In this document: in pieces, positions 2,674-64,000 of the stretch | Position numbering within the stretch: the first letter of the stretch is position 1 | Layout: the number at the start of each line of letters is the position of its first letter | Source of the DNA: Ascidia mentula | Lineage: Eukaryota; Chordata; Ascidiacea; Phlebobranchia; Ascidiidae | Reading direction: 5' to 3' | Length of the DNA stretch: 64,000 nt | Assembly (NCBI GenBank): GCA_947561715.1 | Contig: OX387205.1 | Coordinates: 13,707,001 to 13,771,000, forward strand | The notes under the pieces: generated by a model | What the model was told of the DNA's origin: nothing | Database searches by the model: none | Seen by the model: the letters and a program-made list of their open reading frames with translations, nothing else | Translations under genes and position numbers: made by a program

Positions 2674-5600
2674 ATGCGAAACCCCAAGATGCAAATCGTC
2701 CTTTTACTCTGTATGTGGCTTCAAGTTTTGCCAGGTGACTACATAGATACCGAGTAATGCACTGACATGATTTGTGTTCGTTGGATGAATCCAACTTCAC
2801 TGAAATAATATTTTGTGAACATTCACAGACTTCGTTCGTTATATTTTGTTCAGGTGGAGGATCGTCCACGTGTCGACCTTCGGCTTATAGTGGAACCAGA
2901 AAGTATTTTCAAATTCCCTCCTCATGTGAAAGTTCAAGTTTTACAAGGGCTTACAGTACTGGAAGTTCTGGAACTGCTGCAATACACTTGTATTACTACA
3001 CACTCGGCAACAATACTTGTTCGGTAAAAATGTCTTACTTCTTTTGTTGACAACATTGACAATTTTGCGTTGTCAACACTGATTACGGTGATGCAAATCC
3101 TCTACGCATATGTGGAGGTCGAATGACAAGTTGTGCTATTGCGTATCAGTGTACCTTGACCACAATATACCCCGTGAAACCACCGAGCTTCTGTAGCTCA
3201 GTTGGTAGAGCGTTGGGTCTGGTTAGCCCAGGGTCGTGAGTTCAAACCTCACCGGAAGCTTGATTTTCAGATCTCGCTCCGATTTGTTGGGAAAATGGCT
3301 GATCCAGCAAGGCCGCGATACCAGTAAAGCTTTTGATTCATTTGTAACAATAATGATTTTTGTGCTCCATTACTCTGATTGCAAACATTCAACTAATCAT
3401 TGAAAGCACTTAACTGAAAAATAAATTCAATACAACGAGAAACAAAATCCAATTTGCAATAATTACTTTTCAATTTTCTTCTTAAAGGGATCAAGAATTT
3501 GCTGGCGAGTCACAAGTCGAACGTTTCTCAAGATGTTCCGCTTCACGCGAACTTTTTTTTGTTCGATATGTTTCTGTGTTCATTTAATTATGTGATAGGT
3601 TTACCAAGGAAGCAACAAAAACGGAGTCTTGCTGGGGACTTTCGTTGGTAATGGAAGTGCGACAGGAATTGTGAAATCAAATACCGGTTCCTTGTATTTG
3701 AGTTGCCCCACGTTACGAGCCATTACCAACTATCCTGCCTTTGCTTTTATAAAAGGTAAATTACTCTATCTACTGATTTCTGTGTAAATGTAATGTTACT
3801 GATGAACTAAAATCACTCGATATGACGAAACAAACATTTTTGTTTGACAATTAGGCGATTTTAGTTTATCAAGTTGAGTGATATTTCAAGCAGATTTTCT
3901 CTGTCGACGTATACTTAGCTTGCATGGTTTACACTGACTTTGTAATTTAACTGTTAATAAAGCTACCGCACAGGGTTTTTCCACCGTGCATTGTGAAACC
4001 TATTTGAAAACACGCCAAGAATTGCTGCTGATTGACGACGAACGTCACTATATGTTGTTTAGTCACCGAGGAAGCCTCGTGCAACTTGGAGTTGGACGTG
4101 GAAGATCTTCCAACAACTCTCGTTCTCCCGACAAGTAATGGAAAGTTATTGGGAAAGCTTGCTTGTAATTACACGATGTCAACTCCAGTGAGGTGCAACT
4201 TTACAGTTACCGTGTCGTCAGGACTAACTGCTTCCGTGAACAACATATTCGTAAGTTCATACGAATAGTTTCAACGAATTTTAATATAAAACTCCTAAAT
4301 CATTGAAATTGCCTGATAATGTCAACGTTGCATTCAAATTCAGACTGCAGGCTGTATTTTGACAATTAATTGCACTTTCTCAAGCAAATAAATAAATAAT
4401 AATGAATACAAAGATTACCACGGCAGTGGTTGAGGAAAATATAGAGGATTTCAAGTCACGGGCTTAGATGCAAAGTTGTTTCCATATGTAGGAGCACGCA
4501 AAGGGTAGGAGGCATACGCACTAAAATGTGATGGGTTACAAATGTAATGTTTATCAGATAATTAATTCCATTTCGTTACAGCGAAGTTCAACCTAAGTAA
4601 CAATAAAGTGTAAATTAAACCTGCCGATAAGTTTCACGTGTCCTTTCATCGCAATTAAAGAATAACTAAAATAAATACAACGACTCTTTCAACATATGCT
4701 GAATTCTAAAATAATGTGGACCAAAGAAAGGCTTTGCCTATTTAAGGAAATATATAATACATCGCACAAGTCGTTTAAAGCGAAGTTCGCATGAAAATTA
4801 CCACAAGTTGTGACTTAAAAACTCAATAGCTTTCAACATTACCTAATGTCTGGTTATGTTAAACTTGCATTTGAATTCGCACATCAGGCTGTATCATGAC
4901 TTTTCAAAGTATTTGGATTCGGACTAAACATGAAATTACTTTCTTGAAAAAAAATACAGCAAAGAATAATGAATGCAAAAAATTACAACAATAGTTTAAA
5001 AAAAGTAAACATGGTTATTTAAGGGAAAGTTATTCGTGTAAAAAGTCGTTCAGAGCGAAGTAGAGTAATCCAAATCACGAAACTTTTGTGTTTTGCTTTC
5101 TTTAGGAAGTATTATAGCGACCTTTTAAAGAAGAAATTTCCTTTAGATTTTATCAGACGATCCTTCCCATCCAGGAATCAGAATAAATTCCACTCAAAGA
5201 GATGAAATAGTCACAACGGTTCAAGCCCGAAGAGTCAACGTTCAAATAATCACTTATACTGGTTCATCACCTTCTCCAACCATTCACATCGATTCAGGTT
5301 TAATACATAACTGTTTGTCAACAAATTACCGCAATATTTTAAACCATGGAAAACGAAAAATTTTAAGCTTGTTACTACAACAAACATAAACACACAAACT
5401 AAACAAACTGCTTGATCTTAATCCCGCTGATAGAATAGGTAATAGTAGATAAACTAAAGACTTAACTCACATGCAAAAATAAAAAGTTACGCCAAACTAC
5501 TCTTCAAAAAATTATCTCTTTCTAATTGGGACCACTTTACGCAGACTGCAAGTTGTTTGATGGAATAGAATGCACCGACTCCGTCAAGCTAAGGTTGGTA

Positions 5601-8140
5601 TTTATGTAAAAATTTGCTGCAAAAAAAACAAGTAAATAAAATTAAATTATTTATTTGCCACAACACGGGTACAAATTTCTGTCAAAAAAAGTAAACACTT
5701 ACAGTGTAACATTGTAACATTATTATGGGTATCAACATTCTATTTGCTTTTTTAGCGTCAGTTCTCATGGATTAAACTTACTTCTAGCAAGCGGAGAAGA
5801 TATTTTGTATATTTCTAATCAAACGACCACCAACCTTAATTCTCTTCCGGAGAGTTGCAAAGCTCCAGCAAATAATCCAGTTTTTCATTTCGATCTCAAC
5901 GAATGTTCTCCAACAAAAAAGGTGTCTGTTTAGATTTTCTTAACAGATTTTGCCAACCCAGGTTATGTTCAACAAAATTGCCATAAACTTCCCCTTTAGA
6001 AACTTTCTTCTTGACAGATTTTCGTTAACACATAGCGAATTAATTGTGGAAAATTGTAGAATTGATGTTTCTCTCTTAGAAAACAAGCGACATGTTCAGA
6101 TTGGTTTACAAAGTTCGCAACTTCAAGTACAACAGCCAAGTAGTAAGTAGGATGTCCTACCGACCTTACTGGGAGATATCTTGTGACTACAACGAGTCGA
6201 AAATATTGAACAGAAATATTAAAGTGGACGCTGGTTCTGTTTTAACCAAATTAGCGTAAGTATGGGTGCGTTTTGGAAAGCTGCAGACATGGTGTGTACA
6301 CGCACTGTTTCGACGTGTAAGGTCGTATCAGTGCAGCTGTTGTCTGTGGCACTGTGCTAGCTTTTGCACTAGCGGGCACACTAATTTCCACTTTGTGGTA
6401 CCTTTCCGGTCAACGTCGATCTGTTGGGTACCCTATACGGAGTGGGTTTTAAATAACACTTTTACAACCACGAGTTTAAGTTAACCTCAAAACTTTTTGA
6501 ACAGAAAAGAAAACATTGTCGCTTCATACAGTACGGTTGGCAACATTACGGTCAGGTTTGCGTTGTTTGGTGACGAGCAAATGCGAAACCCACTTACATC
6601 TAATTCGATCGTTAGTGTTCCAGAATATATCTACGCAAAACTGGATATTTCGGCCTACAAAAAAATAGATTTATTGGTGAGTAATCATTCAAGTGTTTCT
6701 TGTGGGCGATGGCTGATAGCGTTTCTGTTTCTTCATCTTTCAATTTAGTTGAAAAGTTGTTGGATCACAAGAGACGTTGGAGGAAATAAAAGATATGAAC
6801 TCATCAGAGAAAGGTGATTACCACGAGCAAATATTTAAACCATCCTTCTTCATTAGTTTGCAAACATTCGTTTGTTTCTGATTTGTTTTGGGTTTTTGTG
6901 CAGACTTATTACCATAAATCTATAGTCTATGAAGGTTACAAATTTGCAAAAAAAAAACGTTTAAAATAAGTTGTTGGGGGCTAATTTTTGCTTTTTTAGC
7001 TGCAAAGTTGAGCACGAAACTGAAACTGAAGACACGATTGTGGTGACGAGAAATTATCAACCGATCTACGCCACCTTCAAGTTTCGTTCATTCGTTTGGA
7101 TGAACGTGTCTGAAAACCAACAATCCCTGTACGCTCACTGCTACGTGCAATTATGTGACAACACCAACACCGTCTGTGCACAACCGGTAAGATAATATAT
7201 TTTTCAATGAAAATCATATATTAATAATTCTGCAAGTGCAAATACCTAGTACAACCGGTAAGATATCCATATCCTGTTATTTATCGCATTGTTCATGACC
7301 ACAAATATTAGCTTAGATAACAACAATGCATGTTTTGCTTTCTTCCCACAGGATTGCTCACGTGGACGTAAACGTCGATCTGTGGTTCCGGGTTTAAAGG
7401 AAGTCATATCAGTTGGACCTTTCTATGTTTCGGTTCCGGATCTGTGTGAAAAGGCGAGTTTTATCCGTGCGACAACTTTACTGGAGAGACTAAACCGTAT
7501 AAGTAGTCTTGAGTCGTGCGACTCATGCAAGTTTATCATTGTACCTTGAAATACAAAACTATGAACGGTCGGGGAACCTCTTTTTCGATTTGACCACACA
7601 AATCGACCATTTCCGAATCCTTGCTCTTAGAATACGGCTTACAGTTAATGCTTGTTTAGGAAAATGGAGGTTGTACGGACTCTTGCAGCGTCATAAACGG
7701 AATCGTGAAATGTTCATGTTTTGAAGGTCACGTCCTTGACGAGGACAAGAAAACGTGCATGGGTAAATGTGGAGGAAACTTAAGCTAATGAAAGATAAGA
7801 TTGTCGTTGCGTTAATGGGCGAATTAAGAAAATATTGTTGCGCATCTGAAGTGTTGCATGGTTGAATATTAGATAACAACCAAATAACTTTGATTCAACG
7901 CAATAACGATGTGAATAAACAAGAACTGCAGAAAATCATAATGCTACTTGCTCTTAATTTATTGTAGGAGTGGAGCAAGCATTTGAAAGCAAAGGATTCC
8001 AGAGAATGGAAATCCTTTACATTGCTGTTGGAGCCATCGTTATTTTACTTGTTGTGGTTGTGGGGTTGATAATAATGCGTTTGAAACCACGTTCCGGTAA
8101 TGGAGGGTTTACCCAGGGAGTACTTGTGCGTGGAAAGTAA
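2674..8140 (+). CDS. Z1: CUB-CUB-ZP-EGF transmembrane protein, type A, complete
   Basis: Fourteen exons: 2674-2734, 2854-3023, 3599-3755, 4063-4250, 5147-5297, 5545-5593, 5756-5921, 6080-6255, 6505-6676, 6749-6813, 7000-7186, 7352-7453, 7660-7762, 7968-8140; 1920 nt, 639 residues, phases all consistent. Residues 1-21 are a signal peptide (MRNPKMQIVLLLCMW). CUB-like 1 is about 30-130 (CSVYQGS, LLGTFVG, LYLSC); CUB-like 2 about 133-243. ZP-N is about 244-345 and ZP-C about 385-525, with paired cysteines (C-K-L-F, E-I-S-C-D-Y, K-S-C-W, Y-A-H-C-Y). RGRKRRS at 518-524 fits a furin-type ZP cleavage site, followed by a hydrophobic patch (VISVGPFYV). An EGF-like module (ENGGCTDSC) is about 547-582 and a transmembrane helix about 597-619, with a short basic tail. 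Exon 12 ends at a GC donor (AAG/GCGAGT) where type B has GT. The domain order resembles CUZD1 with an added EGF. Function is not known; a secreted or matrix-forming ectodomain is inferred. Confidence 0.88.
3187..3259 (+). repeat. tRNA-like core of repeat (Z1 intron 2)
   Basis: The cloverleaf arms are recognisable: D stem GCTC/GAGC, T arm GTGAG/CTCAC, boxes A and B intact. The acceptor has mismatches (GCTTCTG against CGGAAGC). It lies at the same place in intron 2 of Z3, Z4, Z6 and Z7, so it predates the array. Confidence 0.75.
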
Positions 8141-8457: not shown

Positions 8458-8899
8458 AAAATGCAGCAACAAACTTTTACACACAAGATTTATGTTAAAC
8501 TGAGGAAGTTAGAAGCAGTTATATTATGCGTATTGCATATGAAAGCTTCGGTTTCTATTGTAGTTTAGCTTGGTGAGCAGGAAATCATTAACAGAATTAT
8601 AATGCTTAACATGATTGCCATGCTATGTGTGATCGAGTACCACTGCATTTAATTATAATCCCATACTTTTTTCGTTTATACAGCTTACGTAACATACACG
8701 ATATTTTTGTTAGTTATGAATGGAAGATTTAGATCAGGCGTATTGACAATCAATATTTGCATTTTTATGTCGTCAAACAAAACAACTTGGGCTTACAGAG
8801 GATTCATATAAGACATATTCCTGCTCGCAAACTCTGCCCTAACAAACCATGCTATATTTCCATTAACAATTCCGCTCCCTTCAGTGTTTATGTTGTTAA

Positions 8900-9045
8900 G
8901 ATGAATTGTCGCAGCCGGATGATTTTGCTGGACGGGCCGGATGTGGCTGTGGGCTGTTGGTTGCTCACCCCAGATTTAAATCAACAAAAAATCGGTTACA
9001 AGGGTGTTTATTTGTGCAAGTAAGACTACTGTGACTTTGGTATAG
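8900..9045 (-). repeat. inverted copy of the repeat found in type-B 3' UTRs
   Basis: Read on the minus strand, this matches the block just after the stop codon of type-B genes (19572-19700): CAAAGTCACAGTAGTC, the CAATCTGGG/GCAACC stretch and the CATCCGGCC region are all recognisable, with perhaps 20% differences. An older interspersed repeat in the opposite orientation is the simplest explanation. Confidence 0.65.
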
Positions 9046-9555
9046 TTTTATACACGAAATCAAACAGAAGTGAATCGGTGACCAAGTGAGATCTGAGCTG
9101 AAAGCTGAGCGTGGCTCGGGCACGCAAGACAGAAAATTTACACAAAAAGAGGTAGATTGGCGCCTTAAATTTTATTGAGTATTTGTCCTCATAATTATCC
9201 AAGTGATGTTTTGTCAGTGGTTACTTCAGAAGTGAGACCTTAACACAGGTTTTTGACTCTCGTTGGAATTCCTATTTGTCATCGTCTTTATTTTGTTTTG
9301 GAGTTCAATAAATGCTGTCAAGCAATGCTTCTCAGGAGCAACTAATGTTGCCGTTTTATCAGGAAAAAAGGTGATATTTTTATAAATTCATTCAGGATAT
9401 TGCACCAACGCTAATCATGAGTTTCTCTAAGATTTGGTCTTGAACAAAAAGACGTTGTTACAAATATTTAGCTTCACCCCAAAAACAACCTTGGTTATTT
9501 GTATAAAGGACAAAGGTGTCCCATACCACAGTGGTAGAATGCTAAACAAATTACG

Positions 9556-10439: not shown

Positions 10440-13400
10440 ATGTCAAAACGAATTTGTATCATTGGTGGGGGTGCAAGCGGACTGACAGCAATTAAATGCT
10501 GTCTGGACGAAGATTTGGAACCAGTATGTTTTGAAATGTCCAACGATATTGGAGGTAAACATGATGAAAAACAACAACATGATTTAAAAAATTAGTCAAC
10601 CTTATTATATATATTAAATTCTCTTGTGCTGGACTGAAAGATTGCAATCAGTATAATCCAGAACAAGCAGATTTTTAATCCAAGAAAAGACTCTCAGTCA
10701 CAGGGGGTTTTTGGGTACACGTATTTTATTGCTTTTTTTACTACTACTACGTAATTTTTGCTGAAACTGACGATGCTTACATAAGCGAAATCGATTTTTT
10801 ACAATAAAATCTGCTGACTTCAATTCAAGGCTTGTTGCTTTATTATATATGCGAACCAAAGTGATTTGCTGTCGCAGATAATAAAACAATGCCTAACCGA
10901 GGGCTACATCAGATAACTTTTACCGGATTATATTTGAGGCTGGCCAACAGAATACGGAGAAAAATAAAAATAATCTATTTGTACACCATGTTTCTTTCCT
11001 TTTTGCACCACACGTTGGTGGACTGGAATATACATTATCTTAGAAAAAGTTGCTGATTCAGCTAGGTTGCGATGCTAGGAAACCACGTTATCACAGATAT
11101 TGCAATAATTGTAAATGTAATAGAAGCACATTATTTTCTTCACAGGTTTATGGAAATATGTTGAGAAAAAATCAAATCGAGCATGTGTGTACAGATCAAC
11201 AATAATCAACACCAGCAAGGAGATGATGTGTTTTTCAGACTTTCCGATTCCCAAACACTTTCCCAACTTCATGCATAATACTAAAATTATTGAATACTTC
11301 CAAATGTATGCAAAAGAGTAAGTAAAGCTTTTTGAAATGTAAAAAAAAATCGTTCAAGTTAAATTTTCCATGTTTTCAAAAATATTTTTATATGATGACA
11401 AATTTCATAGACAAATTGATTTAATTTCTAGGATATATCAAACTGAATTGTACCAATACTTCACAACGCCAGTAATGTTTTCGTATTCTGTTATAACATT
11501 TCAATTACACACATGAAAAAATTTAGGTTTAGTCTTGAAAAATACATTCAACTTCAAACTAAAGTCCTGTCTTGCAAATTTGCAAAGGATTATGAAACCA
11601 CTGGAAAATGGTGAGTTGGTTTTCTATGGGTGAGACGAGCCATGTACTTGAATTTGCATGATTTTATGGCTCTTTTGCATCTTCATACATGATTTTTGTC
11701 ATCAACAAAAACAGTAAATGTTTAATGAAAAAATTGTATATACCATAATGCAAAAATATGTTGTTGTTTTCAACAGTGATGTTTAGTAATGAGCGCCTGA
11801 CTTGATAACCTTTATGGTTTTATCGGTGCCCATGCCATTTCATTTCCTTGTATATTGTTCTTGTATCACAATGCAAAAATATGTTGTTGTTTCAGACATA
11901 TGTTGCAAAACATTGTTTGAATGTCATGCCACGTATTAGCTAAGATGCTCCTTAATTTTGTGTGTGTGCAATGTTAAGTCAGGCTGCCTGACTCAGGCAT
12001 GATAACCTTTATATAGACATATAACAACTCTGGTTTGTATTGCACTGTTCATAACTGACTTGATGACATCATCTTGATGACAATAATGTTCTGCTATTTT
12101 GCAGGTGTGTTAAGCATAAAAATATAGAAACTGACCATGAGTCTGAATCTACATTTGATGGTGTTATTGTTGCTGTTGGACATCATGCTCTGCCATACTT
12201 TCCTTTGGAATCTTTTCAAGGTAGTTAATGGTCTTGGAATATTTAATGTCGACCACAACAAAACAAGAAATAAAACTAATAGTACACATTTTTGTTGTGA
12301 AAAAAATGAATTTCTTTTCAACAGATTTCAAGAAATTTAAAGGTGGATACATCCACAGCCATGATTATAGAAATCATGATGGGTTTGAAAAAAAACGTGT
12401 TTTAGTGGTTGGAATCGGAAATTCTGGTGGAGACATCTCTGTTGAACTGAGCAGAGTAGCAAACCAGGTATGCAGAAATCTGTATGTTAGGGCATAGTTT
12501 TACTTTCAAGCATGATTATTTTAAGATATGCAAATCTTTAGGGCCTGACAGCACTATTGGTTGAGCTTTACTTGCCATAGTGTTTCCACCTTGTTTTCTC
12601 CGTAGAGTTGCACCTAGTTTGGTGCCCAACGGATGCCGGTGATTGTATAGTCACCACAAAGTGGAAGTCTTTGCTTGGCCGTTTGGTCAGCAAAGTCGCC
12701 TAAAAGTCACACCAGTTGCACTGGTGAGACCTTTTTGGTTGAAACAGTGGTCATCTGTATGCATCTTGCACAATGATTATTTTATCCTAACAAGTGAGGA
12801 TTAACCTAGGTCGTTGCAATATCGCCCATGACACCTAGTTGTAAGAATATATATATTTTGCCCATAGCCAAAAATCATCAGTTTTCTTAAATCAACAGAG
12901 GAAATATTAAAGTTTAACATTCAGATTTTTGTTTTCTAGGTATATTTAAGTACTCGCAGTGGTTCGTGGGTTCTAAACAGAGTGAATGACAATGGCCTTC
13001 CACTTGACATTGTGAAAGTTAACAGGTCAGTACGATACAAGTTAATTTGGCTTGTTAATTGTGGGAGATTATTATTACCGACAGATGGATTGTTGTATTG
13101 TAGGACATTCTCCGAGTGAACTGACTTGTTAACATAATGTATGCATGCACTTTTGTGGAATGGCATCCAAACTAGGAATGTTAATGCTTGTGTGGGCTCC
13201 AAAATTATACGTGTTTTCTCACTAAAATAAAGTTTGTTTTGCCATCCAAATTTTTAATGTATAAGGACTGCTTATTCACAATAGGTCAGAGCTCTTCCTC
13301 AAGATTTTGTTATGCTTGCATTATAGAGCATTGTATTGTGATTTTGTGTCTACTGTAACACTTTTTCTGGAAATTTTAATTATGTTAGCTGCAGAAAGAT

Positions 13401-15554
13401 GGCCACTGTTTCGACCTATTAGTACATCTTGGTGTAACTATTGTAGACGATCTTGCCAGTCAAACAACCAGCGCCAAAATGCCTAATTTTCTACTTGTAA
13501 TTTGCATTAGGTTGACCCAATTCATGTTGGACAAATTACCAGCATCTGTCACAAATGGTGTTGGTGAATGGTTGCTTAACAAAAGGTTTGATCATGAGTT
13601 ATATGGACTTCGACCAAAACACAGAGTGTTTGGTCAGGTAAAATATTTTTATTGTCCACTTTAGTACAGATGTAGTTTTTGTGAACAAAATAGAACCTAT
13701 CTAGTGTGTAAAAGTAAAATTTTGTGCTGAAATTGTTTTGTCTAAACATTTTACATAAATGAAAACGTATTTATCATTCAAAGTAATATTTTTGAAGAAT
13801 GATTGCCAAAATGACAAAAAGTACAATGTTTTTTGTTTAAAAGCACCCCATGGTCAATGACGACATCCCAAATCGAATTTTAAGTGGAACTTTGATCATC
13901 AAAGGAAACATTCGAAACTTCACTGAAAATGGAGTTTATTTTGAGGACGGCGAATTCCAGGAAATAGATTATGTGATTTTCGCCACTGGTTACAACTTTT
14001 CCTATCCATTTCTTGATGAGTCTATTGTTAATGTAAGTCTAAATAACCTTAAAATTTGATCATTGACAAATAAATTAGGCATGTATATACATACGTACAT
14101 TTACCAACTATTGCAATCTGCTTCTTGTTGAAACTGTTTGCCGTCAATGCATGTAACTCGATTAATAGAAATTAGTTGTGTGGAGACTGTACGTAAAATT
14201 AATTTGTAAGCTTAGGATATCATGTATTGTAGGTTAAGAAGAACCAGGCTCCTTTGTACAAGTTTATGTGGCCTCCAAATGTAGAAAAGGGTACTCTCGC
14301 AATTATTGGTGGTATCCAGCCAATGGGTGCCATCAATCCCATATCAGAACTTCAGTGCCGATGGATTACAAGAGTGTTCAAAGGTATACTTGATATTAAA
14401 GGCAATGTAGTTTTGCACACAGTTTGTAATCAACTGCTCTTGAATCCCCTAATACAGTGGTTCTTAATTTCATGCACCCCTTTTAATCAATCTTTAAAGC
14501 CAAAATCACCCCTTTAGAAATTTAGTTTGTGAACTTTTTAACTCCAAGTAATGAATTTGTGCAATTGCATTTTTAACAAAATTCCCCCCTGTTGCAAAAC
14601 AAATTCACCTCGATTGATGACTCCTTCTCTGATTCTGTAAACTGCTTTTTTGTAATTTGTTGAAAGAATTTTCATAAACCGAAATTTGTTTTAAGAGCAT
14701 TTTATCAGTTGTGATTTATGTATGCCAGTCATTTGTAAACCTGTTATCGGTTACATTGCAGGACTTGCAAAACTTCCAACCAAGGCAGAAATGAATGCTC
14801 ACTTAATTAGAACTGCAGAAGTTATGAAAAAGAGATATTATTCAACACAACGGCATACTGTCCAAGTATTACGACGCGTTTTTAATTTAAGTACACAGTG
14901 TGGACAATTGTTTAAAAAATTAGTAATGTTTTTCAGGTGGATTATGTAAAATACATGGATGACTTAGCTGTGGAAATTGGTGTCAAGCCAAATCTTTTGA
15001 GGTTGGCGTTCACTGATCCAACTCTCGCAAAGAAACAAAATTGAAGAACTTCTTGCTTTTAATAGAGCAATGGATTCCAAAACTCTACAGTTGCAACATT
15101 GGGTATAACATCAGTAATTTTTGAGCAGTCCTTTTTTTTCACTTGATGTTTGAGTGACACTGGTTAACAGCGACAGCTATAGTGCGTATTGTTACATTTC
15201 TGATTCTTCTCGGTTGTTGATGGTTTAGAATTGTGACATAAACAATACCATATAGTGTTAGACTGTTTAATGTCTAGGTTTTGAAATCATTCCAATGTCT
15301 AGGTTTTGAAAACATTCAGTATTCACATCAAATTTGTATTCTATGTGTAGTAATATTTGTTGTACTTTCTGCAGGTGATATTTGGGCCATGTACACCATA
15401 CCAATTTAGACTGGAAGGCCCAGGAAAATGGTCCCAGGCTCGAAAAATGATTATGACACAGCAGGAAAGGGTTCTTCATCCACTTAAAACAAGACCTAGT
15501 GTGGCTACCAGAAAGCCTGGCAAACTAGTGCAAATTGCATTAATTTTTAATTAA
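10440..15554 (+). CDS. FMO-1: flavin-containing monooxygenase
   Basis: Exons: 10440-10554, 11146-11317, 11527-11610, 12105-12220, 12325-12467, 12940-13025, 13511-13637, 13844-14032, 14233-14383, 14762-14865, 14937 to about 15026, 15375-15554; about 518 residues against the usual ~530. Class B FMOs use FAD and NADPH to oxygenate soft nucleophiles, usually at the ER. Visible motifs: FAD-binding GGGASG (residues 9-14), [14 protein letters not shown] signature F-x-G-x(3)-H-x(3)-Y (167-177), NADPH-binding GIGNSG (192-197), FATGY (327-331), FGPCTPYQ near the C-terminus. The donor after exon 11 is abnormal: family alignment puts the junction after LAKK, but CAAAAT follows instead of GT. A GC donor at 15027 would keep the frame and lose three residues; read-through stops at 15042-15044, giving about 464 residues. 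There is no obvious hydrophobic C-terminal anchor. The 3' end runs straight into intron 6 of Z2. Confidence 0.85.
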
Positions 15555-15718: not shown

Positions 15719-17095
15719 AGTCAGTTCTTATGGATTTAACTTACTTCTAGCAAGCGGAGAAGATATTTTGTATATTTCTAATCAAACGACCACCAACCTT
15801 AATTCTCTTCCGGAGAGTTGCAAAGCTCCAGCAAATAATCCAGTTTTTCATTTCGATCTCAACGAATGTTCTCCAACTAAAAAGGTGTCTGTTTAGATTT
15901 TCCTAACAGGTTTTGCCCACCCAGGTTATGTTCAACAAAATTGCCATAAACTTCCCCTTTAGAAACTTTATTCGTGACAGATTTTCGTTAACACATAGCG
16001 AATTAATTATGGAAAATTGTAGAATTGATGTTTGTCTCTTAGAAAACAAGTGGCACGTTCAGATTGGTTTACAAAGTTCGCAACTTCAAGTACAACAGCC
16101 AAGCAGTGAGTAGGATGTCCTACCGACCTTACTGGGAGATATCTTGTGACTACAACGAGTCGGAAATATTGAACAGAAATATTAAAGTGGACGCTGGATC
16201 TGTTTTAACCAAATTAGTGTAAGTGAGTGGGTTTTTACTCTCCAACCCCTACTTCTACATAACACCAGCAAGCGGCCACAGAAATCACATTTGACATTGC
16301 TGTGACCTTGTGTTGTTTACGACCGAGTCAGCCTCTATTTTAGATGGGATGAAAATTACACAGCTAGAAAAGGAGCCCAACAAAATGTTACACGGTCCTC
16401 GGGTCTTTTAAATGTGAACCCTTCCTCTTATTCTCTGTTTCCACTTTTTATTTCAATGAAACTTAACATTACAACTCTCTGTGCAGAAAGGAAAGCTTTG
16501 TCGCTTCACGACGTGCACTTGGAAACTTCACGATTAGCTTTGGGTTATTTGGTGACGAGCAAATGCAAACACCTCTTACATCAGAATCGATCGTCAGTGT
16601 TCCCGAATACGTCTACGGAAAGCTGAATATATCAGCTCACAAAGAGTTAGATCTCCAGGTAATTTATCGCATTTCATCACATTTTCTTTAGTTGAAAAAT
16701 ATCTGCATTGATTATTTCCGAACTATTTAGCCAAATTGCAGATAAAAAGTTGCTGGGTCACAAACAGCAGCGGTGTTAAAAGTGAAGGCTACAGTCTCAT
16801 TACAGAAAGGTACGATTTCTTGAACTTTTCTGTAAAGCATGGAAAGTTTTTACAAGGTATATTTTACCTAGTGCACTACATTAGGTATATGGCATATTGC
16901 AAAAACTTTACATAAAATCAAAAGGTGGGAATCACCCTGGAACTGTAAGACAAACCCAAGCTGAAAACCATTAATTCGCGCTTGCTTATATTGTTCAAAC
17001 TCACATCAAAAGCAAAAACAAATTATTAGTAATGCACTATTTTCACACACCGAATCTCGATTACAAAGCCTACATTAATATTTCAACCAAATCAA

Positions 17096-47195: not shown

Positions 47196-47209
47196 GTTAC
47201 CATGGTAAC
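47196..47209. promoter_or_regulatory. 14 bp palindrome, X-box-like (Z5 intron 13)
   Basis: GTTACCATGGTAAC, unchanged even though this gene is broken. Confidence 0.35.
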
Positions 47210-50364: not shown

Positions 50365-53300
50365 ATGCGAAACCGCAAGATGCAAATCGTCCTTCTACTT
50401 TGTATGTGGCTTCAAGTTTTGTCAGGTGATTAAACAAGAAACCGTGTAATGCACTGACATAATTTGTGTTGGTTGGATGAACCCAACTTCACTGAAATAA
50501 TATTTAATGAACATTCACAAACTTCGTTCGTCGTATTTTGTTCAGGTGGAGGATCGTCCACGTGTCGACCTTCGGCTTATAGTGGAACCAGAATCTATGT
50601 CCATACCCCCTCCTCATGTGAAAGTTATATAAGGGCGTACAGTACTGGAAGTTCTGGAACTGCTGCAATACACTTGTATCGAAACACACTCGGCAACAAC
50701 ATTTGTTCGGTAAAAATGTCTTACTTCTTTTGTTGGCAACATTGACACTTTTGCGTTGTCAACGCTGATCACGGTGGTGCGAAATCCTCTACGCACATGT
50801 GGAGGTCGAATGACAAGTTGTGCTATTGCGCATCAGTGTACCTTGACCACAATATACCCCGTGAAACCACTGAGCTTCTGTAGCTCAGTTGGTAGAGCGT
50901 TGGGCCTGGTTAGCCCATGGGTCGTGAGTTCAAACCTCACTGGGAGCTTAATTTTCTGATCTCGCTCCGATTTGTTGGGAAAATGGCTGATCCAGCAAGG
51001 CCGCGATACCAGTGAAGCTTTTGATTCTTTTGTAACAATAATGATTTTCGTGCTCCATTACTCTGATTGCAAACATTCAACTAATCATTGAAAGCATTTA
51101 ACTGGAAAAGAAATTCAATACAACGAGAAACAAAATCCAATTTGAAATATTTACTTTTCAATTTTCTTCTTAAAGGGATCAAGAATTTGCTGGCGAGTCA
51201 CAAGTCGAACGTTTCTCAAGATGTTTCGCTTCACGCGAACTTTTTTTTGTTCGATATGTTTCTGTGTTCATTTAATTATGTGATAGGTTTACCAAGGAAG
51301 CAACAAAAACGGAGTCTTGCTGGGGACTTTCGTTGGTAATGGAAGTGCGACAGGAATTGTGAAATCAAATACCGGTTCCTTGTATTTGAGTTGCCCCACG
51401 TTACGAGCCATTACCAACTATCCTGCCTTTGCTTTCATAAAAGGTAAATTACTCTATCTACTGATTTCTGTGTAAATTTAATGTTACTGATGAACTAAAA
51501 TCACTCGTTATGACGAAACAAACATTTTTGTTTGACAATTAGGCGATTTTAGTTTATCAAGTTGAGTGATATTTCAAGCAGATTTTCTCTGTCGGCGTAT
51601 ACTTAGCTTGCATGGTTTACACTGACTTTGTAATTTAATTGTTAATAAAGCTACCGCACAGGGTTTTTCCACCGTGCATTGTGAAACCTATTTGAAAACA
51701 CGCCAAGAATTGCTGCTGATTGACGACGAACGTCACTATATGTTGTTTAGTCACCGAGGAAGCCTCGTGCAACTTGGAGTTGGACGTGGAAGATCTTCCA
51801 ACAACTCTCGTTCTCCCGACAAGTAATGGAAAGTTGTTGGGAAAGCTTGCTTGCAATTACACGATGTCAACTCCAGCGAGGTGCAACTTTACACTTACCG
51901 TGTCCTCAGGACTAACTGCTTCCGTGAACAACATATTCGTAAGTTCATACGAATAGTTTCAACGAATTTTAATATAAAAACTCCTAAATCATTGAAATTG
52001 CCTGATAATGTCAACGTTGCATTCAAATTCACACTGCAGGCTGTATTTTGACATTTCAATGTATTTGGATTTGGTCTAGAATTAATTGCACTTTCTCAAG
52101 CAAATAAATAAATAATAATGAATACAAAGATTACCCATGGCAGTGGTTGAGGCAAATATAGAGGATTTCAAGTCACGAGCTTAGATACAAAGTTATTTCC
52201 ATATGTAGGAGCACGCAAAGGATAGGAGACATACGCACTTAAATGTGATGGGTTACAAATGTAATGTTTATCAGATAATTAATTCCATTTCGTTACAGCG
52301 AAGTTCAACCTAAGTAACAATAATGTGTAAATTAAACCTGCCGATAAGTTTCACGTGTCCTTTCATCGCAATTAAAGAATAACTAAAATAAATACAACGA
52401 CTCTTTCAACATATGCTGAATTCTAAAATAATGTGGACCAAAGAAAGGCTTTGCCTATTTAAGGAAATATATAATACATCGCACAAGTCGTTTAAAGCGA
52501 AGTTCGCATGAAAATTACCACAAGTTGTGACTTAAAAACCCTTTACCTAATGCCTGATTTTGTTAAACTTGCATTTTAATTCGCACATCAGGCTGTATCA
52601 TGACTTTTCAAAGTATTTGGATTCGGACTAAAAATGAAATTACTTTCTTGAAAAAAAATACAGCAAAGAATAATGAATGCAAAAAATTACAGCAATAGTG
52701 TAAAAAAAGAAAACATGATTATTTAAGGGAAATTATTCGTGTAGAAAGTCGTTCAGAGCGAAGTAGAGTAATTTAAATCACGAAACGTTTGTGTTTTGCT
52801 TCCTTTAGGAAGTATTATAACGACCGTTTAAAGAAGAAATTTCCTTTAGATTTTATCAGACGATCCTTCCCATCCAGGAATCAGAATAAGTTTCAATCAA
52901 AGAGATGAAATAGTCACAACAGTTCAAGCCCGAAGAGTCAACGTTCAAATATTCACTTATTCTGCTTCATCACCTTCTCCAACCATTCACATTGATTCAG
53001 GTTTAATACATAACTGTTTGTCAACAAATTACCGCAATATTTTAAAACATGAAAAACGAAAAATTTTATGCTTGTTACTAAATTATTTCTTTCCAATTGA
53101 GACCACTTTACGCAGACTGCAAGTTGATTGGTGGAATAGAATGTACCGACTCCGTCAAGCTAAAGTTGGTATTTATGTAAAAATTTGCTGCAAAAAAAAC
53201 AAAGTAAATAAAATAAAATTATTTATTTGCCACAGCACGGGTACAAATTTCTGTTAATTTTTCTGTTGGCCAAAGTACACACTCACAGTGTAACATTTTA

Positions 53301-56300
53301 TCAATGTATTAGTTAACAACATTCTACTTGCTTTTTTAGCGTCAGTTCTTATGGATTAAACTTACTTCGAGCAAGCGGAGAAGATATTTTGTATATTTCT
53401 AATCAAACGAACACCAACCTTAATTCCCTTCCGGAGAGTTGCAAAGCTCCAGCAAATAATCCAGTTTTTCATTTCGATCTCAACGAATGTTCTCCAACTA
53501 AAAAGGTGTCTGTTTAGATTTTCCTAACAAATTTTGCCCACCCAGGCTATGTTCAACAAAATTGCCATAAACTTCCCCTTTAGAAACTTTCTTTTTGACA
53601 GATTTTCGTTAACACATAGCAAATTATGGAACCTTGTAAAATTGATGTTTGTCTCTTAGAAAACAAGTGGCACGTTCAGATTGGTTTACAAAGTTCGCAA
53701 CTTCAAGTACAACAGCCAAGTAGTAAGTAGGATGTCCTACCGGCCTTACTGGGAGATATCTTGTGACTACAACGAGTCGGAAATGTTGAACAGAAATATT
53801 AAAGTGGACGCTGGATCTGTTTTAACCAAATTAGTGTAAGTGAGTGGGTTTTTACGCTCAAACCCCTACTTCTACATAACACCAGCAAGCGGCCACAGAA
53901 ATCACATTTGACATTGCTGTGACCTTGTGTTGTTTACGACTGAGTCAGTCTCTATTTTAAATGGGATGAAAATTATACTGCTAGAAGAGGAGCCCAACAA
54001 AAAGTTACACGGTCCTCGGGTCTTTTAAATGTGAACCCTTCCTCTAATTCTCTGTTTCCACTTTTTATTTCAATAAAACTTAACATTACAACTCTCTGTG
54101 CAGAAAGGAAAGCTTTGTCGCTTCACAACGTGCACTTGGAAACTTCACGATTAGCTTTGGGTTGTTTGGTGACGAGCAAATGCAAACACCTCTTACATCA
54201 GAATCGATCGTCAGTGTTCCCGAATACGTCTACGGAAAGCTGAACCTATCGGCTCACAAAGAGTTAGATCTCCAGGTAATTTATCGCATTTCATCACATT
54301 TTCTTTAGTTGAAAAATATCTGCATTGATTATTTCCGAACTATTTGGCCAAATTGCAGATAAAAAGTTGCTGGGTCACAAACAGCAGCGGTGTTAAAAGT
54401 GAAGGCTACAGTCTCATTACAGAAAGGTAAGATTTCTTAAACTTTTCTGTAAAGTATGGAAAGTTTTTGGAAGGTATCTTTTACCTAGTGCACTACATTA
54501 GGTATATGGTATCTTTCAAAAACTTCACATAAAATTAAAAGGTGGGAATCACCCTGGGACTGTAAGACAAACCCAAGCTGAAAACCATTAATTCGCGCTT
54601 GCTTATATTGTTGAAACTCACATCAAAAGCAAAAGCAAATTATTAGTAATGCACTATTTTCACACACCGAATCTCGATTACAAATCCTACATTAATATTT
54701 CAACCAAATCAACAGTAATATTTTATGCAATGGCATGACTGGCAGGATCGCCCCACTGCGCAGGTCCTTGCTTGGCGATCACATCTAACGTATCGCTATC
54801 GTGAGGTATGGGCTAGGCAGCGATGTCTGGGCTGCCAAGCCTGCAAACCTCATGATCGCAATCACGACATTGCATGAAATATTACTGCGTTATCTGATGC
54901 CGTGTTTAAGATCCCTTACGTATATGTGAAGGTTGCCAGGCAAGTTGTTTGCTTACGCACCAGTGTACCTTGGCCACAATATACACCTTGAAGCCACTGA
55001 GCTATCTCACCCATAGCTCAGTTGGTAGAGCGTTGGGCCTGGTTAACCCAGGTTCGTGAGTTCAAACCTCACCGGGAGCTTCATTTTTCACATCTTGCTT
55101 CGGCTTGTCAGGAAAAAATGGCTGATCCAGCCAAAGTTTTTTTGCGAATTTGCCCAAACTTACGAGATTGACAGGTGAGACACTTGCAGTCTCCTGTTTA
55201 TACTTTTTCTTAACTTGAACACCAGTCAAATCTACCCTTGTCCAACTGGAACTTATCTGATTGATGGATGACGTCATTTTTTGCCTCGTGGTCTGGACTG
55301 TAGTTCAGAAAATGTCGCCTTTTGCCCCAAATGCTTTATATGTGTCCAGTGAATAATTAATAGTTGTGACCAATGCACGAATTTCTTACCGAAAGTTTTG
55401 GCTTTTAGTAAAAGTATTTAAATTTCAGTTTGTTTCCTTACGTTTAGTTGCAAAGTTGTGCTCGAGGCAGAGGCGGAAGATGCAATCGTGATAATGAGGA
55501 ATTACCAGCCGACTTTCGCAACCTTTAAATTTCGCTCATTCGTGTGGGTGAATAAGGATGTAAACCAACATTCCCTGTACGCTCACTGCTACTTGCAACT
55601 CTGTGACAATATTAATAATGATTGTCAAAAACCGGTAAGATTTGAAATTAGCTTCTCCCAGTATTAAATGACATTAGATGAAGTCCCGATAAAATTGTTG
55701 TTTAGAATTGCACAAAAAAACGTCAACGGAGATCCACGCGAGTAAGCTTAAATGAAGTTATCTCTGTTGGGCCTTTCCATGTTTCCACCCAAGACTTGTG
55801 TGAAAAGGTAGAAAAAAATCTTTTCAACATGAATTTAACAATTTGAACCAGTGGTTTTCAAACTTTGCTGCGCTCTGAAGAAAATGATGCAAACAAACAG
55901 TCAACGTTCTCCGACTGGCAATTATAAACATAGAAATCACTCGTTGTCGTTGTGATTAATTTATCGTTGTTTTTTCGCAAATGCGACGGATATTTCCAAG
56001 TGCGTCACCCGCGAATAATATTGAGAAGCTCTGATTTAAACGTTTACATACTGCTAAGTGGTCCTGATTCCACCCTTGTTATGCTTAATGAAAGATATCT
56101 GACTCTATATCTCGTTTCCTTCTTAAAAACGTATTTATTTTGTTCAGAACAATGGGGAATGCTCAGATTTTTGCAACGTCATGAACGGGAAAGTCCATTG
56201 CTTTTGCTTCGAAGGTCGCTACCTTGGCAAAAACAAGAAAACATGCATTGGTAATTATGCTGCACTGTTAAATCGAGTCGTATAGTAACTTTGAAATTGT

Positions 56301-57112
56301 TTGTGGTTTCACAAAAGATGCGTCCTTGAGTCATTATAATAATACTCTTGGGTTACCATGGTAACATAATCCCTCACAGGCTTATATCAGTTTTTTCTCA
56401 TGGAACCTGATAGCTATGACGAAAATGAAAGACACTTTTCACTATTGACATACGCGCTTGTATCGCGGAGACGATTTTGCACTCCATAATATTATTTGCA
56501 ACATTTTTCAAAGCAACTCCACAATTTATTTAAGAACAGAACTGACTATGATTTCTGTGAGTTTGCTTGGTGCATTCATGCGTGAAAACTTGTCTCATGT
56601 TTGGGTTGTGCGAGATTGTAATGTTGTGAAAGTGTTCATCCATTGTAATCTGGTTAATCTTACGCTATTTTAATGCCTTCTTGGCTGTGATAAGTTTATT
56701 CTATTTGAATAAGGTGGATCCGTGTAGGCATTTAGTTTTGAATCGTGTTTGTTCTAGTTTATTCATCTGTTTGCTGTAAAACTGTTCACCAACTGCAAAT
56801 TGGAATAAAAGGTTGTAGAATTGCACGCATACAAAACGTACACGGCAAATAAGGATCTGTATCCTACAATTTATTTGTGTTGTTGTTATTTTCACCACGG
56901 CGAGCATAACAATGTCGCCAGTGCGGAGTAAATTCTTATAATACAAAACACATTTAACTTTACATGCAGATGTAGAAGAAGCGTTGCAAAGCGAAGGTTT
57001 CCAGAGTTTGGAAGGTGTTTACATTGCAGTTGGATTCATCGTTCTTCTACTCATTGTTGTGTTGGGATTCACCGTTAGATATTTGAGACGTCGTTTCAAC
57101 AAGAACGAATAA
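50365..57112 (+). CDS. Z6: CUB-CUB-ZP-EGF transmembrane protein, type B, complete
   Basis: Exons: 50365-50425, 50546-50709, 51287-51443, 51751-51938, 52850-53000, 53116-53164, 53340-53505, 53660-53835, 54104-54275, 54359-54426, 55448-55634, 55706-55807, 56148-56250, 56970-57112; 1887 nt, 628 residues. Patches: SGTRIYVHTP, NYPAF, TASVNN (as in Z1, a type-A gene), ISFNQRD; ZP-N begins CKLIGGIEC instead of CKLFDGIEC. The furin-type site is KKRQRRS, then EGF and transmembrane helix as in the other type-B copies. Intron 5 is only 115 bp, several hundred bases shorter than in the relatives. No inactivating change seen. Confidence 0.88.
50874..50947 (+). repeat. tRNA-like core (Z6 intron 2)
   Basis: As the other intron 2 copies, with one extra base in the variable loop (CCATGGGTC). 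Confidence 0.7.
54718..54881. repeat. fold-back segment (Z6 intron 10)
   Basis: Same unit as in Z2, including the shared variant TATCGCTATCGTGAGG. Confidence 0.7.
55001..55079 (+). repeat. tRNA-like core (Z6 intron 10)
   Basis: Orthologous to the Z2 insertion. The right flank is shortened: CCAGCC runs straight into AAAGTTTTTTTGC, so the right direct repeat is lost. Confidence 0.7.
56352..56365. promoter_or_regulatory. 14 bp palindrome, X-box-like (Z6 intron 13)
   Basis: GTTACCATGGTAAC, identical in all four type-B intron 13 copies. Confidence 0.35.
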
Positions 57113-59516: not shown

Positions 59517-62500
59517 ATGCGAAACCCCAAGATGCAAATCGTCCTTCTACTCTGTATGTGGCTTCAAGTTTTGCCAGGTGACTACATAGATACCGAGTAA
59601 TACACTGACATAATTTGTGTGCGTTGGATTAACCCAACTTCACTGAAATAATATTTTATGAACATTCACAGACTTCGTTCTTCGTATTTTGTTCAGGTGG
59701 AGTGTCGTCCACGTGCCGACCTTCGGCTTATAGTGGAATCAGAACGGCTTTCCATATCCCCACCTCATGTGAAAGTTATGAATTTGCGTACAGTACTGGA
59801 AGTTCTGGAACTGCTGCAATACACTTGTATTTCAACTCACTCGGCAACAATACTTGTTCGGTAAAAATGTCTTACTTCTTTTGTTGAAAACATTGACACT
59901 TTTGCGTTGTCAACGCTGATTGCGTGATGCAAATCCTCTACGTATATGTGGAGGTCGCATGGCAAGTTGTGCTATTGCGCATCAGTGTACCTTGACCACA
60001 TATACCCTGTGAAACCGCCGAGCTTCTGTAGCTCAGTTGGTAGAGCGTTGGGCCTGGTTAACCCAGGGTCGTGAGTTCAAACCTCACCGGGAGCTTGATT
60101 TTCCGATCTCGCTCCGATTTGTTGGGAAAATGGCTGATCCAGCAAGGCCGCGATGCCAGTGAAGCTTTTCATTCTTTTGTAACAATAATGATTTTCGTGC
60201 TCTATTACTCTGATTGCAAACATTCAACTAATCATTGCAAACATTTAACTGGAAAATAAATTCAATACAAAGAGAAACAAAATCCAATTTGAAATAATTA
60301 CTTTTCAATTTTCTTCTTGAAGGGATCAAGAATTTGCTGGCGAGTCACAAGTCGAACGTTTCTCAAGATGTTTCGCTTCACGCAAACTTTTTTTTGTTCG
60401 ATATGTTTCTGTGTTCATTTAATTATGTGATAGGTTTACCAAGGAAGCAACAAAAACGGAGTCTTGCTGGGGACTTTCGTTGGTAATGGAAGTGCGACAG
60501 GAATTGTGAAATCAAATACCGGTTCCTTGTATTTGAGTTGCCCCACGTTACGAGGCATTACTAACTATCCTGTATTCGCGTTTATAAAAGGTAAATTACT
60601 CTGTCCACTGATTTCTGTGTAAATTTCATATAACTGATGAACTAAAATCACTCGTTATGACGAAACAAACATTTTTGTTTGACAATTAGGCGATTTTAGT
60701 TTATCAAGTTGAGTGATATTTCAAGCAGATTTTGTCTGTCGGCGTATACTTAGCTTGCATGGTTTACACTGACTTTGTAATTTAACTGTTAATAAAGCTA
60801 CCGCACAGGGTGTTTCAACCGTGCATTGTGAAACCTATTTAAAAACACGCCGAGAATTGCTGCTGATTGACGACGAACGTCACTATATGTTGTTTAGTCA
60901 CCGAGGAAGCCTCGTGCAACTTGGAGTTGGACGTGGAAGATCTTCCAACAACACTCGTTCTCCCGACAAGTAATGGAAAGTTATTGGGAATGCTTGCTTG
61001 TAATTACACGGTGTCAAGTCCAGTGAGGTGCAACTTTACAGTTACTGTGTCGTCAGGACTAAATGATTACAAGGACAACATATTCGTAAGTTCGTATGAA
61101 TAGTTCCAACGAATTTTGATATAAAAACTCCTAAATCAGCCATGAAATTGCCAGATCATGTCAATGTTGCATTTAAAATCACACCGCAGGCAGTATTTTG
61201 ACTTTTCAATGTATTCGGATTTGGTCTAGAATTAATTTCAGTTTCTCAAGCAAACAAAAAAAAGGCAGAAAAACTATGGATACAAAAATTACAATGGCAG
61301 TGGTTGAGGCAAATATAGAGGATTTCAAGTCACGGGCTTAGATGCAAAGTTATTTCCATATGTAGGAGCACGCAAAGGGTAGGAGACATACGCACTTAAT
61401 GTGATTGGTTACAAATGTAATGTTTCTCAGATAATTAATTCCATTTCGTTACAGCGAAGTTCAACATAAGTAACAATAAAGTGAAAATTAAACCTGCCGA
61501 TAAGTTTCACGTGTCCTTTCATCGCAATTAAAGAATAACTAAAATAAATACAACGACTCTTTCAACATATGCTGAAATGTAAAATAATGTGGACCAAAGA
61601 AAGGCTTTGCCTATTTAAGAAAATATTTAATACATCGCACAAGTCGTTTAAAGCGAAGTTCGCATGAAAATTACCACAAGTTGTGACTTAAAAACTCAAT
61701 TGCTTTCAACATTACCTAATGCCTGAATATGTTAAACTTGCATTTGAATTCGCACATCCGGTTGTATCTTGACTTTTCAAAGTATTTGGATTTGGACCAA
61801 AAATTTAATCGCTTTCTAGAAAAAAAATACAGCAAAGAATAATGAATGCAAAAAATTACAACAAAAGCGCAAAAACAGTAAACATGATTATTTAAGGGAA
61901 AATTAATCGTGTAAAAAGTCGTTCGAGCGAAGTAGAGTAATTTAGATCACGAAACTTTTGTGTTTTGCTTTCTTTAGGAAGTATTATAGCGATCGTTTAA
62001 AGAAGAAATTTCCTTTAGATTTTATCAGACGATCCTTCCCATCCAGGAATCAGAATAACTACCACTCAAAGAGATGAAATAGTCACAACAGTTCAAGCCC
62101 GAAGAGTCAACGTTCAAATATTTACTTATGCTGCTTATTCACCTTCTCCAACCATTCACATCGATTCAGGTTTAATACATAACTGTTTGTCAACAAATTA
62201 CCGCAATATTTTAAACCATGAAAAACGGAAAATTATAAGCTTGTTACTACAACAAACATAAACACACAAACTAAACAAACTGCTTGATCTTAATCCCGCT
62301 CATAGAATAGGTAATAGTAGATAAACTAAAGACTTAACTCACATGCGAAAATTAAAAGTTACGCCAAACTACTAAAAAATTATCTCTTTCTAATTGAGAC
62401 CACTTTACGCAGACTGCAAGTTGTTTGATGGAATAGAATGCACCGACTCCGTCAAGCTAAAGTTGGTATTTATGTAAAAATTTGCTGCAAAAAAAACAAA

Positions 62501-64000
62501 CTAAATAAAATAAAATTATTTATTTGCCACAACACGGGAACAAATTTCTGCTAATTTTTCCCTACGCCAAAGTAAACACTTACAGTGTAACATTGTAACA
62601 TTATTATGGGTATCAACATTCTATTTGCTTTTTTAGCGTCAGTTCTCATGGATTAAAATTACTTCTAGCAAGCGGAGAAGATATTTTGTATATTTCTAAT
62701 CAAACGACCACCAACCTTAATTCCCTTCCGGAGAGTTGCAAAGCTCCAGCAAATAATCCAGTTTTTCATTTCGATCTCAACGAATGTTCTCCAACTAAAA
62801 AGGTGTCTGTTTAGATTTTCCTAACAGATTTTGCCCACCCAGGTTATGTTCAACAAAATTGTCATAAACTTCCCCTTTAGAAACTTTCTTCTTGACAGAT
62901 TTTCGTTAATACATAGCGAATTAATTATAGAAAATTGTAGAATTGATGTTTCACTCTTAGAAAACAAGTGGCATGTTCAGATTGGTTTACAAAGTTCGCA
63001 ACTTCAAGTACAACAGCCAAGTAGTAAGTAGGATGTCCTACCGACCTTACTGGGAGATATCTTGTGACTACAACGAGTCGAAAATATTGAACAGAAATAT
63101 TAAAGTGGACGCTGGATCTGTTTTAACCAAATTAGCGTAAGTATGGGTGCGTTTTGGAAAGCTGCAGACATGGTGTGTACACGCACTGTTTCGACCTGTA
63201 AGGTCGTATCAGTGCAGCTGTTGTCTGTGGCACTGTGCTAGCTTTTGCACTAGCGGGCACACTAATTTCCACTTTGTGGTACCTTTCCGGTCAACGTCGA
63301 TCTGTTGGGTACCCTATACGGAGTGGGTTTTAAATAACACTTTTTACAACCACGAGTTTAAGTTAACCTCAAAACTTTTTGAACAGAAAAGAAAACATTG
63401 TCGCTTCATACAGTACGGTTGGCAACATTACGGTCAGGTTTGCGTTGTTTGGTGACGAGCAAATGCGAAACCCACTTACATCTAATTCGATCGTTAGTGT
63501 TCCAGAATATATCTACGCAAAACTGGATATTTCGGCATACAAAAAAATAGATTTATTGGTGAGTAATCATTCAAGTGTTTCTTGTGGGCGATGGCTGATA
63601 GCGTTTCTGTTTCTTCATTTATTCAATTTAGTTGAAAAGTTGTTGGATCACAAGAGACGTTGGAGGAAATAAAAGATATGAACTCATCAGAGAAAGGTGA
63701 TTTACCCCGAGCAAATATTCAAACGATCCTTCTTCATTAGTTTGCAAACATTCATTTGTTTCTGATTTGTTTTGGATTTTTGTACAGACTTATTACCGTA
63801 AATGTAGTCTATGAAGGTTACAAATTTACAAAAAAAAGCGTTCAAAAAACGTTGTTGGGGCTAATTTTCGCTTTTTTAGCTGCAAAGTTGAGCACGAAAC
63901 TGAAACTGAAGACACGATTGTGGTGACGAGAAATTATCAACCGATCTACGCCACCTTCAAGTTTCGTTCATTCGTTTGGATCAACGAGTCTGAAAACCAA
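59517..64000 (+). CDS. Z7: CUB-CUB-ZP-EGF family, type A, cut by the window end
   Basis: Exons 1-10 are complete: 59517-59577, 59697-59860, 60434-60590, 60898-61085, 62019-62169, 62413-62461, 62637-62802, 62961-63136, 63387-63558, 63632-63696. Exon 11 starts at 63880 and runs off the end. The start gives MRNPKMQIV, as in Z1. Patches: SGIRTAFHIPTSC (as in Z4) with ESYEFAYS, NYPVF, LNDYKDN (close to Z5), ITTTQRD and TYAAYSPSP. Intron 8 and exon 9 (KENIVASYSTVGN) place it in type A. All exons seen are open and in phase. Furin, EGF and transmembrane exons should lie beyond the window. Confidence 0.87.
60022..60094 (+). repeat. tRNA-like core (Z7 intron 2)
   Basis: Acceptor GCTTCTG/CGGGAGC, boxes A and B intact; the anticodon stem is weakened by TTAACCCA in place of TTAGCCCA. 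Confidence 0.7.

Follow-up and report, generated by a model that had tools for sequence, protein, structure and literature searches.

Tandem ZP-module genes with hypervariable N-terminal patches in the ascidian Ascidia mentula: a possible germline repertoire of recognition proteins

Introduction

Non-self recognition in invertebrate chordates, which lack rearranging receptors, is an open question. The closest described relatives in design of the genes reported here are uromodulin (UMOD) and GP2, which share with them a ZP-C domain, a basic cleavage site, a hydrophobic G-P patch after this site, and a membrane-anchored precursor. According to the accessible part of a review (PMC13361971), many cleavage sites of ZP proteins are cut and the ZP part then polymerises. 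Among ascidians, the individually variable proteins of Ciona intestinalis type B (Kurn et al. 2007, cited after two reviews available in part) are likewise ZP-domain proteins of unusual variability. The egg-coat proteins HrVC120/HrVC70 and CiVC57 are ZP-domain proteins as well, and HrVC120 is processed (PMC9265791, partial text). Here, we describe a 64,000-nucleotide stretch of the genome of the solitary ascidian Ascidia mentula (C73:13707001-13771000, hereafter the window; C73 is our label for the contig that contains it). It holds eight copies of one 14-exon gene, all on the forward strand and head to tail, as an earlier note on this DNA had described.

We propose, with a probability of about one half, that the array to which these copies belong forms one part of a repertoire of recognition proteins encoded in the germline, whose heads are carried on ZP filaments and are directed mostly against microbes or other non-self. 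All data are from one haplotype of one individual.

Organization of the array and size of the family

The complete array comprises 21 copies, all in forward orientation, in 213 kb (C73:13602723-13815379), and the 254 kb read around it contain no N and are thus gap-free. Eleven of the 21 copies are intact: they retain all 14 exons, their splice sites are usable, and the frame is open. This count includes G2 and G3, in which the first ATG is lost and the next one stands at codon 6, and G21, which has an additional partial exon 9. Six copies are truncated (G9, G10, G12, G15, G18, and G20), and in four (G5, G6, G7, and G19), an exon or a splice site is damaged or unusual. These numbers support the birth-and-death turnover that the earlier note had suggested. 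Its count of at least three broken copies in the window also stands (three are truncated), whereas its number of complete copies has to be corrected to four, plus one that finishes beyond the window. The 3' halves fall into two types, A (nine copies) and B (12 copies), which alternate irregularly along the array and are 70-77% identical in blastn-aligned exons. The distance to the next copy is 5.3-10.9 kb after type A and 1.8-3.1 kb after type B. The copies in the window are as follows:

1 to 756, + strand: G10, truncated type B, end part; it starts 4302 bases before the window, exon 11 is cut near 756, and exons 12-14 are missing
2674 to 8140, + strand: G11, type A, complete by splice sites and phases, 639 amino acids (aa), ZP-C match at E 1e-18
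15719 to 19520, + strand: G12, truncated type B, exons 7-14 only (without exons 1-6)
21811 to 28680, + strand: G13, type B, complete, 629 aa, ZP-C 3.1e-19
31081 to 37035, + strand: G14, type A, complete, 638 aa, ZP-C 1e-18
42320 to 47956, + strand: G15, truncated type B, exons 3-14 (without exons 1-2)
50365 to 57112, + strand: G16, type B, complete, 628 aa, ZP-C 5.8e-19
59517 to 64000, + strand: G17, type A, intact, with its end at 65029 beyond the window

Genome-wide searches covered 195.8 Mb in 79 contigs. Single-exon queries gave 104 (exon 2), 108 (exon 3), 104 (exon 4), and 93 (exon 5) matches, which are counts of exon matches rather than genes and include damaged copies. The matches are mainly on C69, C71, C72, and C73, with a few on C1, C2, C52, and C67. 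Judged from these sequences, the family would have about 100 paralogues.

Among the far copies, some share the same score within or between chromosomes (C69:19.6-21.8 Mb, C71:16.18-16.75 Mb, and C1:15.10-15.12 Mb; e.g., C1:15124814 equals C69:21295991), and from these match scores they may be very recent segmental copies. Another row of ZP-C exons, spaced by about 7.8 kb, lies at C67:8.93-9.00 Mb, where the single match among the four N-terminal exons searched is exon 3 at C67:8938996.

Precursor architecture and domain identity

The 14 exons of G11 splice with consistent phases into an open frame of 639 aa:

2674-2734, 2854-3023, 3599-3755, 4063-4250, 5147-5297, 5545-5593, and 5756-5921, + strand: exons 1-7
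6080-6255, 6505-6676, 6749-6813, 7000-7186, 7352-7453 (GC donor), 7660-7762, and 7968-8140, + strand: exons 8-14
7352 to 7453, + strand: exon 12, with the furin-type site RGRKRR followed by the hydrophobic patch EVISVGPF, aligned to GP2

From the N terminus, exon 1 encodes a signal peptide (by eye), exons 2-3 domain 1, exons 4-5 domain 2, and exons 6-8 a ZP-N-like region (by eye). Exons 9-11 encode ZP-C, exon 12 the basic site and the hydrophobic patch, the end of exon 12 together with exon 13 an EGF-like domain, and exon 14 a transmembrane helix with a short tail of about 20 aa in type A and about 10 aa in type B. The donor of exon 12 is GC (AAG/GCGAGT) in eight of the nine type-A copies, and G19 has GT. 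On sequence grounds, each intact gene is predicted to encode a secretory-pathway precursor made of a signal peptide, two variable domains of unassigned fold, a ZP module, a furin-type site, an EGF-like domain, a transmembrane helix, and a tail.

A furin-type motif between ZP-C and the EGF-transmembrane part was detected in 17 of the 21 copies and in both types. In the other four, the exon is absent (G10), damaged (G20), or was read out of phase (G9 and G12), although the G12 exon does carry the motif. The description of these products as membrane proteins in the earlier note therefore fits the precursor, which has a transmembrane anchor, but, because of the position of the furin-type site, the membrane state is probably restricted to it. 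The proteins might instead remain unshed and act as transmembrane signalling receptors, for instance on blood cells, in allorecognition or immunity. A hydrophobic helix follows the EGF-like domain in G11 (at about 598-621), and exon 14 of the other copies read looks alike within each 3' type, which speaks for such receptors; the furin-type site in both types and the short tails, in which no known signalling motif is seen by eye, make this highly improbable.

The ZP-C domain (PF00100) was found in all four copies complete in the window at 1e-18 to 3.1e-19, with 68-70 bits against a cut-off of 24.6. Together with the basic site, the hydrophobic patch, and the membrane anchor, this places the products among ZP-C proteins with predicted cleavage. 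Among solved structures, G11 matches GP2 best (8xc5, E 5.6e-13), over ZP-C and the patch that follows the basic site, and next uromodulin (6tql, 4e-7). The ZP-N-like nature of exons 6-8 is a resemblance by eye, and no match to a profile or a solved structure on the N-terminal side of ZP-C identifies ZP-N. Six cysteines in exons 12-13 likely form an EGF-like domain: FXa_inhibition matches G11 at 1.6e-7 and 31.8 bits, just under the curated cut-off of 33.4, and the three other complete window copies at 29.8-31.8 bits, while G11 also matches the EGF regions in structures of LRP4 and factor Xa.

The earlier note had read the products as CUB-CUB-ZP-EGF and had suggested a domain search on the spliced products. 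This search places ZP-C far above and the EGF-like domain just under the Pfam cut-offs, and no test gave a CUB match. CUB (PF00431) had no Pfam match at E<=1 in G11 and the other complete copies, nor at E<=10 in a further Pfam search, and the PDB yielded no CUB match, including in a search by profile. None of the CUB matches scored genome-wide (150 of 876 candidates) lies in the array; in this search, half domains encoded by single exons would receive low scores. For hhalign comparisons, a profile was built from 20 CUB stretches of this genome and divided into two; domain 1 reached a probability of 11% and domain 2 of 1%, against 99.8% for CUB versus CUB; as a control, the ZP-N-like region aligned to CUB with an E-value similar to that of the variable domains. 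A likeness to CUB by eye (both domains consist of two exons with phases 1-0-1) was therefore given up in view of the negative profile tests and the equal control score, which an in-register stretch, SVYQGSNKNGVLLGTFVGN, aligned with one CUB stretch, did not outweigh. Domain 2 showed weak matches to He_PIG (putative Ig), all below cut-off: 0.025 (15.4 bits versus 24), 0.0043 in one of five, and 0.053 in one of three. No protein homologue was found at E 1e-5 among 7994 scored candidates of a large collection whose share of animal proteins is not known.

Hypervariable patches in the two N-terminal domains

Sixteen copies of the C73 array have exons 1-8 and were aligned. Nineteen columns hold at least four different residues, of which 18 are in exons 2-5 and are grouped into patches. 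The patch combination is distinct in all 16 copies. Within exons 2-5, two copies differ on average at 12.8 of the 18 patch residues, versus 15.3 of the 204 other residues. The patches are listed below in the coordinates of G11; the far set comprises 20 far pairs of exons 4 and 5.

2898 to 2912, + strand: HV1 (RKYFQ in G11), 15 versions in 16 copies
2931 to 2948, + strand: HV1b, eight versions in 16 copies
2991 to 2999, + strand: HV2 (YYY in G11), 12 versions in 16 copies; the same site is variable in other clusters
3737 to 3739, + strand: HV3, one codon, eight residues in 16 copies
4152 to 4157, + strand: HV4, six versions in 16 copies; by eye variable also in the far set
4227 to 4238, + strand: HV5, 12 versions in 16 copies; by eye variable also in the far set
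5186 to 5194, + strand: HV6, 11 versions in 16 copies; little variation in the far set
5255 to 5260, + strand: HV7, 11 versions in 16 copies; by eye variable also in the far set

Tyrosine makes up 19% of patch residues versus 3.5% elsewhere; Arg, Phe, Trp, and Ala are also raised, and Cys and Pro do not occur. Antibody binding sites are likewise rich in such residues (Tyr, Arg, Phe, and Trp). The view of the earlier note that a diversifying N-terminal part is set on a constant C-terminal part is thereby supported, as variation resides in the N-terminal patches and the rest is near-constant within each 3' type.

Tests for selection and exchange among copies

An independent test of the patches is available for exon 2. 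Eight patch columns were fixed in C73 and applied to exons of C69, C71, and C72 (40 sequences, 38 of them distinct, mostly the higher-scoring of 88 matches outside the 16 of the array). In this far exon-2 set, the ratio of nonsynonymous to synonymous divergence (dN/dS) was 1.35 at the C73-defined patch columns versus 0.34 at other columns, and none of 20,000 sets of eight randomly drawn columns reached an equal proportion of nonsynonymous differences (pN). Per-column pN was correlated between C73 and the far exon-2 set (rho 0.60, p 1.3e-6). In C73 itself, dN/dS of exon 2 was 1.52 at patch columns versus 0.74 elsewhere.

Comparison with introns is a further measure. The p-distance of exon 2 is 0.120, about twice that of its adjoining introns (0.055 and 0.060). 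Exon 4 (0.086) also exceeds both its introns (0.029 and 0.063), exons 3 and 5 are intermediate between their two introns, and exons 1 and 6-8 lie below theirs (exon 7 at 0.028 and exon 8 at 0.036, versus 0.116 for intron 6 and 0.146 for intron 7). These data also bear on the idea that the proteins are structural filaments of mucus, tunic, or cuticle, with patch variation as tolerated drift and conversion rather than recognition. Many ZP proteins are structural, with examples in the accessible part of PMC13361971, and dN/dS is below 1 in exons 3, 4, and 5, as it is in every exon of exons 1-8 other than exon 2. However, drift alone should neither double the divergence of exon 2 over its introns, nor hold variability at the same columns in the clusters of other chromosomes, nor make Tyr, Arg, and Trp more frequent in the patches, and we regard a purely structural role as improbable.

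The copies are mosaics of one another. Incompatible site pairs rise from 0.22 within 20 bases to 0.52 beyond 1 kb, none of 500 permutations was as low in a PHI-like test, and the best partner switches along the gene in the five copies examined. This pattern fits gene conversion or unequal crossing-over. In many patch codons of C73, the first two positions vary and the third base is more stable, and of the 21 positions at which three bases occur, A is absent from one and C from 13. Adenine-directed or other targeted mutation was not adopted as an explanation, since selection for residue change accounts for the same codon and base pattern.

A proposed recognition repertoire and its possible sites of action

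Many paralogues, and variation that is concentrated and held by selection, are features of a diversified immune-type multigene family and are found here; the patches would be its binding region. Under the proposed recognition repertoire, cleavage at the furin-type site would free the ZP part, which would polymerise in the manner of uromodulin and GP2 and give filaments that bear many variable heads. Conversion-like exchange would reshuffle patches among copies, and selection would keep them different. For the heads, the most likely ligands would be diverse surfaces of microbes or other non-self, encountered at an epithelium, in mucus, or in blood.

A number of observations weigh against this repertoire. 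The dN/dS of 2.05 over the patch columns in C73 proves little, as these columns were chosen for their variability, and the independent column test covers exon 2 alone. Over the whole of exon 2, dN/dS is 1.11, not clearly above 1 (bootstrap 0.58-2.03), and over exons 2-5 together it is 0.66 (0.45-0.95). The proportion of synonymous differences (pS) is also raised at exon-2 patch columns, at 0.332 versus 0.086 in C73 and only 0.369 versus 0.299 in the far exon-2 set; local mutation, import by conversion, or a bias of the counting method may therefore contribute to the patch pattern. HV6 varies little in the 20 far pairs. In addition, eleven ZP proteins are present in the Ciona egg coat, and polymorphic ZP proteins are reported from oocytes and follicle cells (PMC9265791, partial text), which favours the egg coat as the place of action.

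The main rival to an epithelium, mucus, or blood is this egg coat. The products could be proteins of the vitelline coat or of follicle cells that meet sperm, with patches diversified by gamete recognition, a block to polyspermy, or self-sterility. Egg coats are built of ZP proteins, and the parts of PMC9265791 and PMC8849226 available to us describe HrVC120/HrVC70, the eleven Ciona coat proteins, and the individually polymorphic oocyte and follicle ZP proteins of Ciona type B. The same partial texts name the s/v-Themis pairs, which are not ZP proteins, as the self-sterility genes of Ciona, and about 100 paralogues far exceed the ascidian gamete systems they describe. An egg-coat function is thus possible but distinctly less probable than the repertoire against microbes or other non-self. 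Microbes are favoured over sperm because of the number of paralogues and of self-fertility in two relatives, which is not a strong basis. About 100 paralogues in one genome would suit a repertoire for many ligands better than a single-locus allotype. The earlier note had considered allorecognition, gamete recognition, or immunity; a recognition role in general is likely, whichever of these kinds it may be.

A bolder form of the proposal, which we hold to be rather doubtful, is that in a chordate without rearranging antigen receptors about 100 germline genes make up an antibody-like repertoire. Paratope-like patches would be multiply displayed on self-assembling ZP filaments, conversion at the scale of patches, possibly together with locally raised mutation, would maintain diversity, and filaments composed of several products would form nets of mixed specificity.

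Flanking and intronic sequences

Parts of a flavin monooxygenase (FMO) gene lie between copies:

12330 to 14385, + strand: FMO gene parts between G11 and G12 (PF00743 at 2.8e-17, 7.3e-6, and 2.2e-16 in three open reading frames)
41223 to 41363, + strand: FMO piece downstream of G14

FMO sequence is found 3' of eight of the nine type-A copies, the exception being G3. All three FMO probe pieces occur at five places in the array region and the first piece alone at three, and a further FMO piece, more distant at 51% identity, is located upstream of the array. The 3' flanks of types A and B (8600-9048 versus 19570-20155) share several stretches in opposite orientation that are 77-84% identical. A 96-aa open frame follows G11 (8733-9020), for which Pfam gave no match, and a near-same one follows G14 at 37628.

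tRNA-Thr(GGT)-like stretches are present at 3186-3261, 22317-22392, 26771-26846, 31585-31660, 50873-50949, and 60021-60096, with weaker ones at 480, 17390, 46177, and 55007. All ten are intronic, each in intron 2 or intron 10 of a copy. Around the first, a stretch of 212 bases (3097-3308) is a dispersed repeat with 44 matches over all large contigs (1983 loose candidates, 40 scored). tRNA-Thr genes were therefore set aside, and the stretches are probably tRNA-derived short interspersed elements.

Comparison with known systems

UMOD and GP2 each come from one gene and have different heads, whereas the array proteins have two unassigned variable domains, an EGF-like domain after the cleavage site, and about 100 genes. 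UMOD is also GPI-anchored, according to the accessible part of PMC13361971, whereas the array proteins have a transmembrane helix. In the variable ZP proteins of Ciona, variation is among individuals and the genes are those of oocytes and follicle cells; in the array, it is among tandem paralogues at fixed patches, and the comparison does not imply kinship. HrVC120/HrVC70 and CiVC57 differ in their heads, which are EGF repeats or VWF-EGF (PMC9265791, partial text). Among the entries listed by a literature search, whose coverage excluded subscription papers and preprints, none named such a family.

Snail FREPs and the SRCR expansions of sea urchins and sponges, as presented in partially available sources, are likewise large or variable recognition families in animals without rearranging receptors. 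The tunicate VCBPs are also variable recognition proteins of this kind. All three have other folds and are not known to be carried on a ZP filament. If the proposal is correct, so large a family, whose hypervariable patches sit at fixed places on a ZP-filament scaffold, would add a new type of germline repertoire to those known, and the array supplies exact residues for testing and allows a comparison with the ZP proteins that were earlier reported as polymorphic in Ciona.

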